Shown here: positions 7,660 to 15,005 of the stretch, in pieces
Layout of the letters: every line of letters begins with the position of its first letter
Position numbering within the stretch: position 1 is the first letter of the stretch
Source of the DNA: Streptococcaceae bacterium AF77-01CM03A
GTDB lineage: Bacteria > Bacillota > Bacilli > Lactobacillales > Streptococcaceae
DNA length: 64,000 bases
Assembly: GCA_027665725.1 (NCBI GenBank)
Contig: JAQDDS010000003.1
Span: 124,001 to 188,000 of the forward strand
Direction: 5' to 3'
Made by a program: the position numbers and the translations under genes
Notes under the pieces: generated by a model
Told to the model about the DNA's origin: nothing
Databases searched by the model: none
The model's input: the letters and a program-made list of their open reading frames with translations, nothing else

Positions 7660-8274
7660 GTGGGAAATTTCATTGAGCTAGTCTTTCATCGTTTCTTTTT
7701 GGGGATGATTGCGACAGCTTATTTTTGGTTATTGACACTAGCAGGAGGAGTGGTCTTTGGTATAGCACCCGCTAGTGCAACTCTCATGAGTTTATATGCA
7801 GAACACGGTTATTCTTATCGTGCTTATCGTTTCAAGGAAGCATGGGCTTTGTTTAAGAGCAATTTTGTAAAAAGCAATCTCAGCTTCTACACCTTTATAG
7901 GGATTGACTTCATCTTGATTTATGGTTTGTATCTGATGATTCAATTGCCAAATCAGACTATTATTCACTTGGCAGCAACCTTTCTAAATATCTTTTTAGT
8001 AGCCTTGGTATTTTTGGCCTATACGGTATCTTTAAAGTTGCAGGTTTACTTTGAATTATCCTATAAAAACACCCTAAAGCTTGCCTTTATCGGAATTTTT
8101 ATGAGCCTATCAGCTATGGCCAAGGTTCTTCTTGGTAGTGTCTTGTTGATTATTATTGGTTTCTACATGCCAGCCCTCCTTATTTTTGTAGGTATTGGAA
8201 TGTGGCACTTCTTTATTAGTGATTTATTGGAGCCTGTTTATGAAAGTATTCATGAAAAATTGGCAACCAAATAA
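7660..8274 (+). CDS. YesL-family (DUF624) membrane protein
   Basis: A 204-residue integral membrane protein with about five hydrophobic segments and the GMIATAYFWLLTLAGG opening typical of YesL/DUF624 proteins. The frame is open for 50 more codons upstream, but those overlap the promoter; the GTG at 7660 has a perfect AGGAGG 7 bases before it. YesL proteins are encoded with YesM/YesN-type two-component systems and sugar transporters. Here it opens such an operon and its 3' end overlaps the kinase gene. Its biochemical role is not known; a part in signal sensing at the membrane is a reasonable guess. Confidence 0.85.
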   Translation: MGNFIELVFHRFFLGMIATAYFWLLTLAGGVVFGIAPASATLMSLYAEHGYSYRAYRFKEAWALFKSNFVKSNLSFYTFIGIDFILIYGLYLMIQLPNQTIIHLAATFLNIFLVALVFLAYTVSLKLQVYFELSYKNTLKLAFIGIFMSLSAMAKVLLGSVLLIIIGFYMPALLIFVGIGMWHFFISDLLEPVYESIHEKLATK

Positions 8275-9925
8275 GACCAAACAATTCCGACTCCACTCAC
8301 TTCTCAGAATCTATAGTCTGGTAATGATTATCATCATCTCCTGCTTTGCTCTCTTGATTTCTTATGCAGACTGGGATATGCGTGAAAGGGAAGCCAATCG
8401 TGTTGGCCAGCGTGTCCTAGCCCGTACTATCGATGAAGTTGAGTATTATTATCGAGAGTCAACCCGCCTAGCCCAGAGTTTAGTGGATAATCAAGCTCGG
8501 ATTGAAGGGATTTACAAATATTTTAGCCTTAGTACGCCGGATTATTTTTACTGGCAGTTGGAACGCAAGGCGTCGCCTTATATTTCCGTTTCCATTTATG
8601 AAAATATTGATGATATATACGTGCGAAACGATTTTGTGACAGGTGTTTCGATTGTTCTACAGGATTCAACGGATGTATTTGTTTCCAAAAGAGAAAACCG
8701 AGGCGGACAGAAGATTCCAGCTGAGAACTTCAAACCAGATGCCAATAGTTTTGCGGTTCCAGTAGCTGATCCTATCTCGGACCAGCCTCTAGGGGTCATT
8801 TATATTTCCGTAGAACCAGAATTCCTCTATAAGGCGATTGACAACACCAGGGGAACAATTCCTGTAGCAGTAACTGTCATTGCACCATATGAAACAGATA
8901 TGTTCTATATAGGGGCAAAAGGGACGAATGAATCTTGGTTAGTAGGAACAACAGCCCATGGTTATCAAGTTCGAGTAGCTGTACCAAAGGATTATGTTTG
9001 GAGTGGGACTTTAGCGAGTTCGGCACTTATTTTAGGTTTGAGTGCACTCTTTATCATCATTTTATATATGACCTTAAGAAGGACTTTTTCTGACTATCAA
9101 AGTCAGGTTGTGGACTTGGTGGACTCTATCCAAGCCATTACTAAGGGAGAGCAGACTAAGAGAATCGACACAGATAAGAAGGACCAGGAATTGCTACTGA
9201 TTGCTGAGTCGACAAATGATATGTTGGATCGACTGGAAAGTAACATTCACGATATTTATCAACTGGAACTCAATCAAAAAGATGCCAACATGCGAGCGCT
9301 ACAAGCTCAGATTAATCCGCATTTCATGTACAATACTCTGGAATTTTTGCGGATGTATGCGGTGATGGAAAATCAAAATGAACTAGCTGATATCATCTAT
9401 GAGTTCAGTAGTCTCCTACGCAATAATATCTCTGACGAGCGAGAAACGACCCTCAAACAAGAAGTGGAGTTTTGTCGGAAGTACAGTTATCTCTGTATGG
9501 TTCGCTATCCAAAATCCATTGCCTATGGATTTAAAATTGATCCTGAATTGGAAGAAATGCGTATTCCAAAGTTCACCCTCCAACCTTTAGTGGAAAACTA
9601 TTTTGCCCATGGAGTTGATCACAAAAGAACAGATAATGTTATCAGTATCAAGGCTTTGAAAAAAGATGGCTATGTCGAAATCTTGGTAACCGATAATGGC
9701 CGTGGGATGTCTGCTGAAAAACTAGCAGAAATTCAAGCTAAACTGGCTCAAAGAACCTTTGAACACACAGCAGATTATAAGGGGCAGCGACAGTCTATTG
9801 GGATTGTGAATATCCACGAACGCTTTGTGCTCTACTTTGGAGACCGGTATAACATTAGTGTAGAATCTACCGAAAAGATGGGTGTTCAATATAGAATCAC
9901 CATTCAGGACGAAGAGAAAGGATAA
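8240..9925 (+). CDS. hk07: YesM/LytS-type sensor histidine kinase (HK07-like)
   Basis: A 561-residue membrane kinase. A helix at about 22-42 and another at about 255-285 enclose an extracellular sensor domain. A HAMP linker, a dimerisation helix with His361 in a QINPHFMYN motif, and an HATPase domain (N-box LVENYFAHG, G-box TDNGRG) follow. This is the HPK8-type architecture of YesM. Upstream in-frame codons exist, but a GGAG at 8228 favours the ATG at 8240, inside the 3' end of the YesL gene (translational coupling). It pairs with the response regulator starting 2 bases after its stop. Order and neighbours match pneumococcal TCS07, reported to affect host N-glycan use. Confidence 0.92.
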   Translation: MKVFMKNWQPNKTKQFRLHSLLRIYSLVMIIIISCFALLISYADWDMREREANRVGQRVLARTIDEVEYYYRESTRLAQSLVDNQARIEGIYKYFSLSTPDYFYWQLERKASPYISVSIYENIDDIYVRNDFVTGVSIVLQDSTDVFVSKRENRGGQKIPAENFKPDANSFAVPVADPISDQPLGVIYISVEPEFLYKAIDNTRGTIPVAVTVIAPYETDMFYIGAKGTNESWLVGTTAHGYQVRVAVPKDYVWSGTLASSALILGLSALFIIILYMTLRRTFSDYQSQVVDLVDSIQAITKGEQTKRIDTDKKDQELLLIAESTNDMLDRLESNIHDIYQLELNQKDANMRALQAQINPHFMYNTLEFLRMYAVMENQNELADIIYEFSSLLRNNISDERETTLKQEVEFCRKYSYLCMVRYPKSIAYGFKIDPELEEMRIPKFTLQPLVENYFAHGVDHKRTDNVISIKALKKDGYVEILVTDNGRGMSAEKLAEIQAKLAQRTFEHTADYKGQRQSIGIVNIHERFVLYFGDRYNISVESTEKMGVQYRITIQDEEKG

Positions 9926-9927
9926 AC

Positions 9928-11214
9928 ATGTATAAAGTACTATTAGTAGACGATGAGTACATGATTACAGAAGGACTCAAGCGTTTGATTCCTTTTGAAA
10001 AATGGGATATGGAAGTTGTCGCAACAGCTAATCATGCTGACGAGGCTTTGGACTATGTTCGAGAGCATCCCGTAGACATCGTCATTTCTGATGTCAACAT
10101 GCCTGACAAGACAGGACTTGAAATGATTGGGGAAATGAAGGAACTCTTGCCAGAGGCGTACTATATCCTCCTCTCAGGTTATCAAGAATTTGATTATGTC
10201 AAGAAAGCCATGAACCTCAATGTTGTAGACTACCTTGTCAAACCAGTTGATAAGGTTGAACTGGAGCATTTACTTGAGAAAATCCTTGGTCAACTTCGTG
10301 AGAAAGTGCATGAACCAGAAATGTTAAGTCAAAAGTTAGACAACGAAGCATTTAAAGCACACCTATCTCAAAAAGAAAACTGGTGGATTGGCCTTTCCCA
10401 AGAAAAACAAGGGGATTTTGTCATCCCTTACTACGTTTTAGGTCAGGGCTGGCAAATTGTGATTGCAGAACAGAAATTCGACGGTCTACTCGTTCTGCCT
10501 TTTGAGGCACCTTATCAGGCCAACTTTGAAAAATGGAAGTTTGACGTTGAAAAAGCACTTTTCTATGGGACTGTAAATCTAGATCAGTCTGAAAGTCTCT
10601 TCTCATATTATGAACCCATCTATCGGGTGATTATCCAGGGAAATCTTCAGCAGATTATCGATGAGTTAAACCTACTCGAGAAGATTGTGCTAGAAAACAC
10701 ACCTAGAGTATCCATCACCAAGCAACTCTTTACTCAGTTTGTTATGGATGTCTTTCATCTCTTTGAGCATTTGAAAGCAGACGATATGACAGATATCGTC
10801 AAGAATATTCATGCCATCACAAACTTTGAGGACTTAGTCGCTTATACAAAAGAAACCTTGACTTCCTTCTTTGGTCAATACCGCATGAATGAAAATGTCG
10901 TCAGTGTACTCGAAGTCATTGGAAGAGACTATAAAAAAGAGCTTTCTCTCAAGGATATCAGCAAGGATCTCTTTATCAATCCTGTTTACTTAGGTCAGTT
11001 AATCAAGAAGGAAACCAATTCAACCTTTGCGGAGCTTCTCAATAAGCAACGTATCAAGGCAGCCCAGCAACTTTTACTATCTACAAATGATAGTATCGAG
11101 GATATTTGCTATACGGTTGGTTATAGTAATGTAGGCTATTTCTACAAGGTCTTTCGAAAACTATGTGGAAAATCTCCTAAGGCTTACCGCAAGCAGATTG
11201 ATGTAACCCTCTAA
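9928..11214 (+). CDS. rr07: YesN-type response regulator (RR07-like)
   Basis: A 428-residue DNA-binding regulator. The receiver domain (about 1-120) has acidic residues Asp8/Asp9, phospho-acceptor Asp55 (ISDVNMPD) and Lys105 (LVKPVDK). A linker domain of about 200 residues follows, then an AraC-type double HTH at about 325-428 (DICYTVGYSNVGYFYKVFRK). It is expected to be phosphorylated by the kinase just upstream and to activate sugar-uptake genes. No sugar transporter or glycosidase operon lies beside it in this window, so its targets are probably elsewhere. Confidence 0.93.
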   Translation: MYKVLLVDDEYMITEGLKRLIPFEKWDMEVVATANHADEALDYVREHPVDIVISDVNMPDKTGLEMIGEMKELLPEAYYILLSGYQEFDYVKKAMNLNVVDYLVKPVDKVELEHLLEKILGQLREKVHEPEMLSQKLDNEAFKAHLSQKENWWIGLSQEKQGDFVIPYYVLGQGWQIVIAEQKFDGLLVLPFEAPYQANFEKWKFDVEKALFYGTVNLDQSESLFSYYEPIYRVIIQGNLQQIIDELNLLEKIVLENTPRVSITKQLFTQFVMDVFHLFEHLKADDMTDIVKNIHAITNFEDLVAYTKETLTSFFGQYRMNENVVSVLEVIGRDYKKELSLKDISKDLFINPVYLGQLIKKETNSTFAELLNKQRIKAAQQLLLSTNDSIEDICYTVGYSNVGYFYKVFRKLCGKSPKAYRKQIDVTL

Positions 11215-12414: not shown

Positions 12415-12624
12415 ATGAGTAAATTACAGAGATCATTTTTAAAGTATATAAAACGAAAACCAAGCTTCAAGGATATTATGCTATGCAGTGCTTTGCTACT
12501 ATTAGCGATTGCTCTGCTACTGTTCTCTGAGAAAATTTTTGATGAAAATGTAGCACCAGTTGGAACCATGGTATCCTTAGGGATTGTTATCCTGGTAGGA
12601 ATCTTAGCTGTCAGAAATAAATAA
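12415..12624 (+). CDS. small membrane protein sharing the LFS[D/E]K[L/I]F motif
   Basis: A 69-residue protein with a basic N-terminus (about 19 residues) and a hydrophobic helix ending in LLLFSEKIF. A short polar loop with a conserved-looking Pro-Val-Gly and a second helix ending AVRNK complete it. The helix-LFS[D/E]K[L/I]F-linker-helix layout matches the two small peptides at 6988-7215 and 7261-7413, suggesting one family. The ribosome site is weak. Its own terminator follows directly. I do not recognise the family; function unknown. Confidence 0.6.
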   Translation: MSKLQRSFLKYIKRKPSFKDIMLCSALLLLAIALLLFSEKIFDENVAPVGTMVSLGIVILVGILAVRNK

Positions 12625-12625
12625 A

Positions 12626-12657
12626 GAGACTCGAGAAATGTCATCTCGAGTCTTTTT
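12626..12657. terminator. bidirectional terminator
   Basis: AGACTCGAGA and TCTCGAGTCT form a perfect 10-bp stem with a 7-base loop, flanked by T and A tracts. It separates the converging genes ending at 12624 and 12659. Confidence 0.85.
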
Positions 12658-12658
12658 G

Positions 12659-12907
12659 TTAGTTGCGAATTTCGTCAACGATTTCTTTTGAAATGGGAAT
12701 CCCTAAACGGTAGCCTTTATTCACGTAATCAATGACATCATTGATATTTTCTATCGTTTGGATTTTTTCTTTGATAGTTGCACGAAAAGCTGGATCTTTC
12801 AATAGTTGGTCCTGAAGCAGTCTTTGAAGTTTCTCTTTTTCATATTTGTTGACAAGAAAGAGAAAAAGAAGACTGATAACAACTAGAATATAAGCGTATT
12901 GGCTCAT
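12659..12907 (-). CDS. small single-helix membrane-tethered protein
   Basis: An 82-residue protein: one N-terminal hydrophobic helix (about 5-20), then a charged cytosolic part with KEKLQRLL and a helical segment ending SKEIVDEIRN. The start at 12907 follows an AGGGAG site; the frame runs upstream but into the hairpin array. It may be read from the argS promoter through the array, since no clear T-tailed terminator lies between. I do not recognise the family. A membrane-tethered adaptor is possible but unproven. Confidence 0.6.
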   Translation of the reverse strand: MSQYAYILVVISLLFLFLVNKYEKEKLQRLLQDQLLKDPAFRATIKEKIQTIENINDVIDYVNKGYRLGIPISKEIVDEIRN

Positions 12908-12979
12908 AAAAATTCTCCCTAGGTGATAAAGAAGTAAGTGGTTAGAGAAAAACGAATATCCTTCGCCTTTCGAGTGATG

Positions 12980-13306
12980 ATACTGTAAGCGCCTAGCCAA
13001 AGTCCAAATAGGATTTGGCGTTAGTTACTTAGCTTGCTTAGTAATAAATTAATTTAATAGATCACGACATGCATCCAAATAAGTCGATATTATTTATTTG
13101 GATGCATTAGTAAGGCGTTTAGGCAAATCGCCTGATAGCGATTGCCGTCAAGAGACTAGGAACTTTAGTTCCAGTAATTTGAAGATTACGACGTTCTATA
13201 ACATAAATCGATGTTATTTATGTTATAGAACTAGTGAAGCAGTTAGCTAGTCCGCATAAAAGCGGCTAGCGTCCAACAATTAGGAACCTTTAGTTCCAAT
13301 TGTTGG
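12980..13306. repeat. tandem 124-bp units made of successive hairpins
   Basis: This gene-free stretch downstream of argS holds two full units with exact 124-base offset and a decayed third. Unit A stems: 13069-13082/13094-13107 (14 bp perfect), 13122-13131/13138-13146, 13159-13163/13168-13172. Unit B stems: 13193-13208/13216-13231 (16 bp perfect), 13246-13255/13262-13270, 13273-13287/13293-13306. Stem sequences differ between units yet pair; linkers and the first loop (TCGATRTTA) are shared, as is the GGAAC/GTTCC hairpin. Stem 12996-13005/13011-13019, with an AAGCGCCTAGCC linker before it, looks like the second stem of a third unit. No T-run follows the stems, so they are not ordinary terminators. 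Confidence 0.8.
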
Positions 13307-13313
13307 TACTGAA

Positions 13314-15005
13314 TCACATCTTCTCTGGTGCCTCTACACCCAGCAAACGGAGGGCTTCTTTAAGGACAACTGCTGTTGCATAGCTGAGAGCTAGACGGCT
13401 ATCACGCTCTGGACTTTCATCCAAGATACGAGTGTGGGCATAGTATTTATTAAAGGCTTGAGCCAAACTAATCGCAAATTTAGCGATGATAGAAGGCTCG
13501 TAGTTATCAGCTGCACGTTTAATGATACGTGGGAAGTCTTGGATTAGCTTGATAATTTCCCAGCTTTCGGCATCGTTCAAACTATAGTTGGCACCTGCTT
13601 CGGGTTTGAAATCAGCTTTACGCAAGATTGATTGGATACGAGCATAAGCATATTGGACATAAGGACCAGTTTCCCCTTCGAAGGATACCATAGCTTCAAG
13701 GTCGAAGTCGTAGCCATTTGTACGGTCAGTTTTAAGGTCATAGAATTTAATGGCCCCAACTCCAACAGCATGAGCGACTTGGTCTTTGTTTTCAAGTTCA
13801 GGATTTTTTGCTTCGATCTGAGCTTTTGCACGGCTGATGGCTTCTGCGACAGTTGGCTCTAGCAAGATAACATTTCCTTTACGAGTAGAAAGTTTCTTTC
13901 CTTCTTTTGTTACCAAACCAAACGGAACATGGACAATGTCTTGGCTCCAATCATAGCCCATCTCTTGTAGTACTGCCTTGAGTTGTTTGAAATGAGCAGA
14001 TTGTTCTTGACCAACGACATAGATAGATTTGGCAAATTGATACTCGTTTTTACGGTAGAGGGCTGCAGCCAAGTCACGTGTGATGTAGAGAGTCGCACCG
14101 TCAGATTTCTTGATAAGAGCTGGGTGTTCAATTCCGTATTTTTCAAGATTCACAACTTGAGCACCTTCTGATTCGACCAAAAGTCCCTTTTCGGCGAGGA
14201 TATCTACAACTGCATCCATTTTATCGTTGTAGAAGGCTTCTCCGTTGTAGCTGTCGAATTCAACTTGTAATTCATCGTAAAGGCGGTTAAATTCTACCAA
14301 GCTTTCATCACGGAACCATTGCCAAAGAGCAAGAGCTTCCTCATCGCCGTTTTCAAGTTTGCGGAACCATTCGCGTGCTTCTTCATCCAAACTTGGGTCG
14401 TTCTCAGCTTCAGCATTAATGCGGACATAGAGCTTAAGGAGTTCATCGATTGGATGAGCTTTGACAGCTTCTTCATTACCCCATTTTTTGTAGGCAACAA
14501 TCAACATCCCAAACTGTTTGCCCCAGTCTCCCAAGTGGTTGACCTTGACAGTTTTATAGCCGATTTTTTGGAAGATATGTGACAAGCTATCTCCGATAAC
14601 TGTTGAACGAAGGTGACCGATTGAAAATGGTTTAGCGATATTAGGGCTAGACATATCAATAACGACATTTTCTTGATTGCCAATCTCTTGGTCAGCGTAG
14701 TGCTCTTTTTCAGTGATAACGTTTTGTAGAACTTGACCAGAAATGGCAGCCTTATCAAGGAAAAAGTTGACGTAAGGACCTGTTGCTACAACCTTTTCAA
14801 AGGCTTGACTATTGATCTTTTCAGCGATGTCAGCAGCAATCATTTGAGGAGCTTTACGTTCGACCTTTGCCAATGAGAAGGCAGGGAAGGCGATATCTCC
14901 CATATCTGAGTTTTTAGGTGTTTCTAGTAAATTTAAAATAGCCTCTTGGTCCAGGCTATCAATGACGCTAGCCAACTCGCTAGCAATCAATTCTTTTGTA
15001 TTCAT
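13314..15005 (-). CDS. argS: arginyl-tRNA synthetase
   Basis: This 563-residue class I synthetase charges tRNA-Arg in the cytosol. The N-terminal tRNA-binding (Arg-S N) domain is about residues 1-90. The catalytic core carries SIGH (128-131, the HIGH box) and a KLSTRKG sequence in place of KMSKS. The DALR anticodon-binding domain follows at about 440-563, ending EAPEKM. Length is normal. The start has an AGGAG site (AAAGGAGCC). It diverges from argR, the arginine regulator, 153 bases away. The gene ends 8 bases from the 124-bp hairpin array. Confidence 0.97.

Follow-up and report, generated by a model that had tools for sequence, protein, structure and literature searches.

The two units and the decayed third unit that follow the essential arginyl-tRNA synthetase gene argS in the window, a stretch of 64,000 nucleotides from a Streptococcaceae bacterium, belong to a repeat family that extends across the genus Streptococcus. 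With a probability of about 0.48, we read the array as a set of non-coding, non-autonomous cassettes of single-stranded DNA (ssDNA) of about 125 bp, which resemble IS200/IS605 or REP elements in logic and are members of neither. This reading is the best one because linkage to a Y1 transposase, an integron integrase, similarity to BOX elements and a match in Rfam all fail. Docking on stop codons, a three-way junction, two alternating classes of the first stem (P1) and dispersed copies behind other genes are features that go beyond the first-pass annotation of this DNA.

The array at argS and the fold of its units

The three units lie in tandem at 12980-13317 on the + strand, flanked by the 3' end of argS and by the gene of an 83-aa protein (Table 1). 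The argS frame shares 99% identity with its orthologue in locus L001 over the part compared, and the 83-aa protein gave no NCBIfam match at E 1e-5. The first-pass annotation had described an offset of 124 bases at three stems, and the pairs 13069/13193 (P1), 13122/13246 (P3) and 13159/13283 (upper P4 stem, GGAAC/GTTCC) are all seen in the sequence. Its limits for the array hold in their coordinates and offsets, but the element extends as far as the stop codon of argS, and unit 1 is decayed as well: the lower P4 strand and P2' are lost or changed, and by our reading of the sequence only unit 2, which adjoins argS, is complete. The P1 stems had been given as 14 and 16 bp with a common span of 39 bases; the span stands, and both stems have 16 bp around a 7-base loop (16 + 7 + 16) if one G-T pair in the first is counted, with arms that are nearly unrelated between the two units. 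The suspected third, decayed unit, the oldest of the row, proved to be real and matches a unit of locus L006; because that unit still has its P1 intact, the P1 of the copy in the window was probably deleted.

Against shuffled sequences, the folding energy of the array gave z values of -11.2 and -12.4 on the two strands (0/200 shuffles for each). A covariance model of P1 and its flanks, R1, was made from 26 of 43 distinct stems, which had been collected by a pattern needing at least 11 of 16 pairs, with some poorly paired ones omitted by hand. When the whole window was scanned with R1 and filters off, only the P1 sites of units 1 and 2 matched well, and the next-best match (16.7 bits) was the reverse strand of one of these two sites. 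Elsewhere in the window, two adjacent genes at 8195-11214 (+) resemble, by eye, a sensor histidine kinase and an AraC-type response regulator.

Table 1. Features of the array at argS and of its neighbours, in positions of the window
Feature	Position	Strand	Parts or content	Evidence
Gene of 83-aa small protein, next gene downstream of argS beyond the array	12659-12910	-		tblastn; beside the array in 30/30 loci (L001-L030)
Decayed unit	12980-13059	+	P1 missing; P3 hairpin 12996-13019 retained; P4 remnant	sequence; P1-bearing counterpart in L006
Unit 1 (class with A-T closing pair)	13062-13189	+	5' site TCAC 13062-13065; GAC; P1 13069-13107; guide GTAA 13110-13113; P2 strand CGTT 13116-13119; P3 13122-13146; decayed P4 13149-13181; end TTAC 13186-13189, common to unit 2	R1 match 78.6 bits; sequence
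Unit 2 (class with G-C closing pair, complete)	13190-13317	+	P1 13193-13231; guide GTGA 13234-13237; P2 13240-13243 with 13308-13311; P3 13246-13270; P4 13273-13306; 3' TCAC 13314-13317	R1 match 84.5 bits; structure parse; fold covariation
argS stop codon, the 3' end of the element	13314-13316	-	TGA (TCA on +)	ORF; stop-codon register across loci
argS (arginyl-tRNA synthetase)	13314-15005	-		ORF; L001 orthologue matches TIGR00456 argS

Folding and a structure parser showed that a full unit consists, on the + strand, of a 16-bp P1 hairpin with the loop CGATNNT and a three-way junction of P2, P3 and P4, in the order 5'-TTAC GAC - P1 - TA GTRA G - P2 - TA - P3 - GT - P4 - P2' - NN - TYA(C)-3'. 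P3 comprises about 5 bp, one extra base and 4 bp; P4 comprises about 9 bp, one extra base and 5 bp, with a loop that is often TTTA. Full units measure about 125 bp and shortened inner units about 75 bp. At the 3' foot of P1 lies the guide GTRA, which is complementary to both the TTAC of the 5' end and the TYAC of the 3' end. The length of P1 is near-constant, most R1 matches spanning 66-68 positions, and the linkers between the stems are invariant in the aligned units. The parser recovered the full fold in 66 of 174 units, the rest being truncated, overlapped by the next unit or beyond the limits of the parser.

The claim that shape is kept while sequence changes was borne out by covariation, both in P1 and in the whole fold. 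In the whole-fold alignment, which holds 28 of 31 listed units, 91.6% of 1329 cells were paired, both sides had changed in 41 of 48 pairs, and 457 double-change cells were counted, compared with 70-119 when the partner was slid by 1-3 columns. For P1, 95.4% of cells were paired, with 154 double-change cells versus 26-50 in the slid controls.

Distribution, docking on stop codons and turnover

A plain DNA search found matches in 70 of 118 Streptococcus genomes; in all 30 loci fetched by DNA search, argS and the 83-aa protein flank the array, and weaker matches are dispersed. R1, applied in the Streptococcus scan that the first-pass annotation had named as the check on its claim, matched in 104 of the 118 genomes, with covariation, and leaves that claim standing. 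Outside the genus set, matches were obtained in 25 of 198 genomes of the order and in 2 of 299 of the phylum, every one of them in Streptococcus, and none was found in any other genus (54 genera of the order and 214 of the phylum) under stricter filters, with which weak matches are lost. An exact pattern scan of a species genome collection gave at least 115 stretches, and among the matches listed with names, 80 of 80 were Streptococcus. Most genomes had fewer than 20 R1 matches at 43 candidates scored per genome, which are lower bounds; G037 and G099 had at least 97 and at least 104, respectively, at 150 candidates scored. The genome sample consisted of species-level genomes, and p-values are overstated because matches within one genus share descent. 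A phage or plasmid origin was rejected: viral contigs held no unit by pattern scan, and phage and plasmid collections gave no blastn match to the array.

The relation to genes was assessed by a register test, in which the opposite-strand gene ending beyond the unit was taken for each gene-proximal unit. The unit patterns behind this test, and behind the guide, TTAC and alternation counts below, cover P1 stems of 15-16 bp only. Such a gene lay within 1.5 kb for 274 of 296 gene-proximal units, and in 170 of these 274 (repeated places included) its reversed stop codon fell 120-129 nt from the flank that opens P1, while other 10-nt bins held at most 8. With unique sequences, the same bin held 107 of 193 gene-proximal units and other bins at most 6; in over half of the unique gene-proximal units, the element ends 3' in a TYA that reads as the neighbouring gene's stop codon in reverse complement. 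The wider range of 108-140 nt comprised 115 unique units in 16 of 35 gene clusters, namely, 52 at argS, 24 at prfC, 3-7 in each of six clusters, 2 in one and 1 in each of seven. Because argS and prfC dominate (76/115), the other genes are represented by 1-7 units each. Of the 16 docked clusters, two are unnamed ORFs and 14 were matched by an NCBIfam model, 10 of them above the cut-off (argS, prfC, obg, pheS, dnaK, groEL, ruvA, pyrF, grpE and sufB); below it were nrdE and parE, both clipped by locus ends, pyruvate dehydrogenase E1 alpha and a GlnQ-like ABC ATPase.

ORFs of at least 90 aa were called mechanically, and among 71 distinct contexts the right-hand ORF was antisense to the element in 59, and both neighbouring ORFs were so, in one direction, in 39; the latter include pheT behind pheS, parC behind parE, dnaK behind grpE, dnaJ behind dnaK, pyrE behind pyrF and nrdF behind nrdE (named by eye). 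The C after TYA is present in 82 of 109 units only, and pheS and parE are among those without it. The guide base facing the middle letter of the stop codon varies together with it, in the way that pairing on the antisense strand of the gene would predict: 109 unique units gave the combinations G/TCA 33, G/TTA 41, A/TTA 31, A/TCA 3 and A/CTA 1 (Fisher p 1.7e-4 on the first four classes, with shared descent ignored). In the five genomes of L088 and L337-L340, PheS ends in SEQF, versus SEQFK in many other streptococci compared, and judging from the sequence the element seems to supply the pheS stop one codon earlier there.

Two classes of unit are distinguished by the first base of P1. Among 336 unique units, 157 begin with A, usually with G.A mismatches (31 perfect), and 174 with G (103 perfect). 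The classes alternate in 91 of 137 neighbouring pairs from 80 distinct arrays, compared with 65.7 on average, and never more than 86, in 5000 permutations, although related arrays are non-independent. The test for unlike neighbours was weak: 4 of 132 neighbouring units were alike, the permutation mean was 9.9, and a value this low arose in 49 of 2000 permutations. Going from an A unit to a G unit, the step is mostly about 75-80 bp; from a G unit to an A unit it is mostly 120-130 bp. TTAC precedes GAC in 242 of 319 unique units, and tandem neighbours share a single TTAC; the TTAC or TYAC found at both unit ends could be a target-site duplication. When arrays were read by eye, the complete three-way junction adjoined the gene and the inner units were often shortened or hybrid.

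Over a stretch of 395 bases, pheS of four genomes shares 93-96% identity with pheS of G268, and the units at this stop codon are unlike. Since unlike units occupy one site and copies are dispersed, exchange or insertion of units is favoured. A clean empty site was not found at dnaK-dnaJ, where species lacking a whole unit show partial or other sequence and decayed copies were seen. This region is highly variable in L306-L335, where a common ACAGAGG...CCTCTG hairpin is followed by several deletion derivatives and by other repeats.

If the units are non-autonomous ssDNA cassettes, the folded + strand would be the mobile form, and GTRA would recognise cleavage or target sites by base pairing, as do the guides of IS200/IS605. 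Insertion at a stop codon would spare the gene, so that such sites would survive, and exchange may be performed by an enzyme supplied in trans or by host repair enzymes. Why stop codons are chosen is the least certain step, in that a site of 3-4 bases is too unspecific; there may therefore be wider recognition, selection that keeps such sites, or an effect on how the upstream gene is expressed. That the units represent a new mobile or exchangeable cassette addressed by host stop codons, with a guide of the antisense strand pairing with the reversed stop, arrays of alternating classes and an unrecognised enzyme, is a rather doubtful possibility. A genus-wide repeat family sits on the stop codons of housekeeping genes (argS, prfC, groEL, dnaK, nrdE, pheS, parE and more) in well-studied bacteria. 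If the pairing of guide and stop is targeting, a selfish element would have a means of finding harmless sites; if its effect is on expression, a control point between genes would be widespread. Whether an enzyme acts on such ssDNA hairpins in streptococci that have neither a linked Y1 transposase nor an integron integrase, and which one, thereby becomes a testable question.

Strand and chemistry of the folded form

Mismatches in P1 comprised 153 G.A versus 12 C.T (174 unique rows). A second model, R2, gave 178 matches in 80 named loci, and alignment A5 was made of the 109 unique rows of at least 118 nt from the best 150 of the 178; its variable pairs, from full-length R2 matches, showed 222 G.A versus 30 C.T. 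In the GTRA/TYAC helix, 54 G-T versus 3 A-C were counted. The pairing pattern fits the + strand, antisense to the gene, and not mRNA. As a control, RNase P was taken from 18 of 30 loci fetched in the same genus, with an RNAalifold structure and 40 variable pairs, and G-T was found in 73 of 711 cells (10.3%), with 1 A-C, 9 G.A and 1 C.T. RNase P, an RNA, also has more G.A than C.T, and the G.A bias therefore tells the strand, not DNA versus RNA. In the variable pairs of the element, G-T amounted to 34 of 1135 (3.0%) with 11 A-C in A4, and to 156 with 86 A-C of 4641 in A5, counts that lean toward G-T because the parser admits G-T and not A-C and covariance models favour G-U. The rarity of G-T pairs points to an element that resembles folding DNA more than RNA. 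The first-pass annotation had left the choice between RNA and ssDNA open, and the evidence now tends towards ssDNA, with the antisense strand of argS as the folded one.

In the mRNA, these palindromes would fold into a highly stable structure directly behind the stop codon, which may lower translation or protect the upstream message, effects that have been reported for REP elements in E. coli. The copies could be gene-end elements of the sense mRNA, kept for their function, in which the structure after the stop stalls ribosomes or blocks 3' decay and thereby tunes the upstream gene in an operon. The stop-codon register in 16 of 35 gene clusters and the 39 of 71 contexts with both neighbouring ORFs in one direction, antisense to the element, speak for such a role. 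According to PMC12306157, ribosomes of E. coli stall at REP elements that lie within 15 nt of a stop, and an nrdAB transcript is named there; here nrdE carries the element. However, sense-strand mismatches would be C.U and A-C, not G.A and G-U, the guide-stop pairing obeys the rules of the + strand, and different species have different units at one site; an origin in sense-mRNA function thus appears unlikely.

A structured RNA from the + strand, antisense to the upstream gene, would agree with the strong covariation and with the strand asymmetry, which points to this strand and has its like in the G.A bias of RNase P. It seems distinctly improbable, since G-U pairs occur about a third as often as in RNase P and A-C pairs more often, Rfam at gathering score gives one tRNA in the window and nothing at the array, promoter-like sites in 12600-13400 are at chance level, and many arrays lie between genes running the opposite way.

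The low G-T share could also stem from the correction of palindromes by template switching, and the absence of strand bias in P3 and P4 alone (8 G-T and 8 A-C in A4) also fits palindromes kept alike in this manner. The units may then be decaying palindromic repeats without present function, the stems being perfect because template switching copies one arm onto the other at replication, and the presence of decayed copies, together with the pair counts just given, is consistent with this. Nevertheless, template switching leaves the near-constant P1 length, the invariant linkers, the stop-codon register and the class alternation unexplained, and we regard such an origin as very unlikely.

Candidate identities and comparison with known systems

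PF01797 (Y1 transposase) was present in 13 of 19 genomes tested and absent from G001 and G030, both of which bear the element, and none of 20 fetched Y1 loci held an R1 match; a Y1-transposase element was rejected because the gene is unlinked in the loci tested and absent from these two genomes. An integron was also rejected, as no integrase scored above the TIGR02249 cut-off in 59 genomes, with sub-threshold matches in all 59. G007, G030, G031, G034, G042 and G046 have tyrosine recombinases in frames of about 300-325 aa; with the integron integrase model, the C-terminal part of these proteins reaches 72-80 bits, which is under the cut-off. A common flanking transposase was dismissed too: ORF clustering around 138 loci brought up housekeeping genes in the flanks, and no transposase was obvious by eye among the clusters listed.

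The earlier view that the hairpins are not simple terminators stands for the 16-bp stems and fails for the short GGAAC/GTTCC stem, which in a consensus scan is terminator-like on both strands, with a weak T tail. As an identity for the array, a simple terminator was rejected; the region 12600-13400 gave three terminator-like matches (0.4 in shuffles), one at 12627-12653 and two that are the GGAAC/GTTCC stem. By eye, several of 30 species instead have a T-run hairpin behind argS. All six Rfam matches in 12900-13400 were sub-threshold, and seven other loci gave two sub-threshold SSRC8_2 matches only (L110 and L118). No family of this form, and no published name, was found in our searches of the open-access literature.

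In G037 and G099 (L110, L111, L113, L118, L121 and L124), units lie, as seen by eye, within longer palindrome-rich composites with ends TGATACTTTC and GAAAGTATCA, some of which hold two units in opposite orientation. These composites are probably a separate miniature transposon that acquired units. The SSRC8_2 (Streptococcus sRNA 8) matches, at L118:2867-2974 (+) and L110:1578-1641 (-), fall in the composites and outside the R1 matches. Units inside longer repeats with such ends would be expected if the family were a miniature transposon with inverted repeats, of the BOX type or another, that a cut-and-paste transposase moves, and S. suis has BOX-type families according to PMC3049150. We consider this highly improbable, as the units of the window show no terminal inverted repeats by eye, and two BOX-like stretches of the fetched loci, recognised by a core motif, gave no blastn match at E 0.01 to 274 units. 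BOX-like elements sit in L188 and L225 and are unlike the docked hairpin family.

Integron attC cassettes are folded single strands conserved in shape, arranged head to tail and bearing the core boxes RYYYAAC / GTTRRRY. The Streptococcus units share with them a folded single strand in which shape rather than sequence is conserved, as well as head-to-tail arrays, but they have no obvious gene and no integrase above cut-off in 59 genomes. Like BOX, RUP and SPRITE, they are interspersed Streptococcus repeats with strong secondary structure. PMC3049150 describes BOX as modular, with a varying number of middle modules, and reports few instances of BOX, RUP and SPRITE outside S. pneumoniae and S. 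mitis, save the BOX types of S. suis. The units had no sequence match to the two BOX-like stretches here.

REP elements and their BIME arrangements are palindromic interspersed repeats that are associated with RAYT transposases and have GTAG at the hairpin foot. The likeness lies in palindromic, interspersed copies, some of them beside stop codons, and in alternating classes within arrays. Where REP hairpins have GTAG at the foot, the aligned units carry TAG or something close to it ahead of P3, and the base in front of it varies. The Streptococcus units differ in their size of about 125 bp, their direct orientation in arrays and their anatomy, and Y1 genes are unlinked in the loci tested. IS200/IS605 elements have a Y1 transposase, a strand-specific folded ssDNA and a guide at the hairpin foot. 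The Streptococcus element resembles them in its strand-specific folded DNA and in a short guide at the foot of a hairpin that can pair with a TTAC-like site; IS608 is described as recognising a tetranucleotide by base pairing (PMC5934647). In contrast to IS200/IS605, no Y1 gene is linked to the Streptococcus element in the loci tested, and it is distinguished by a three-way junction, a covarying P1 of 16 bp, docking on stop codons and tandem arrays of two alternating classes.
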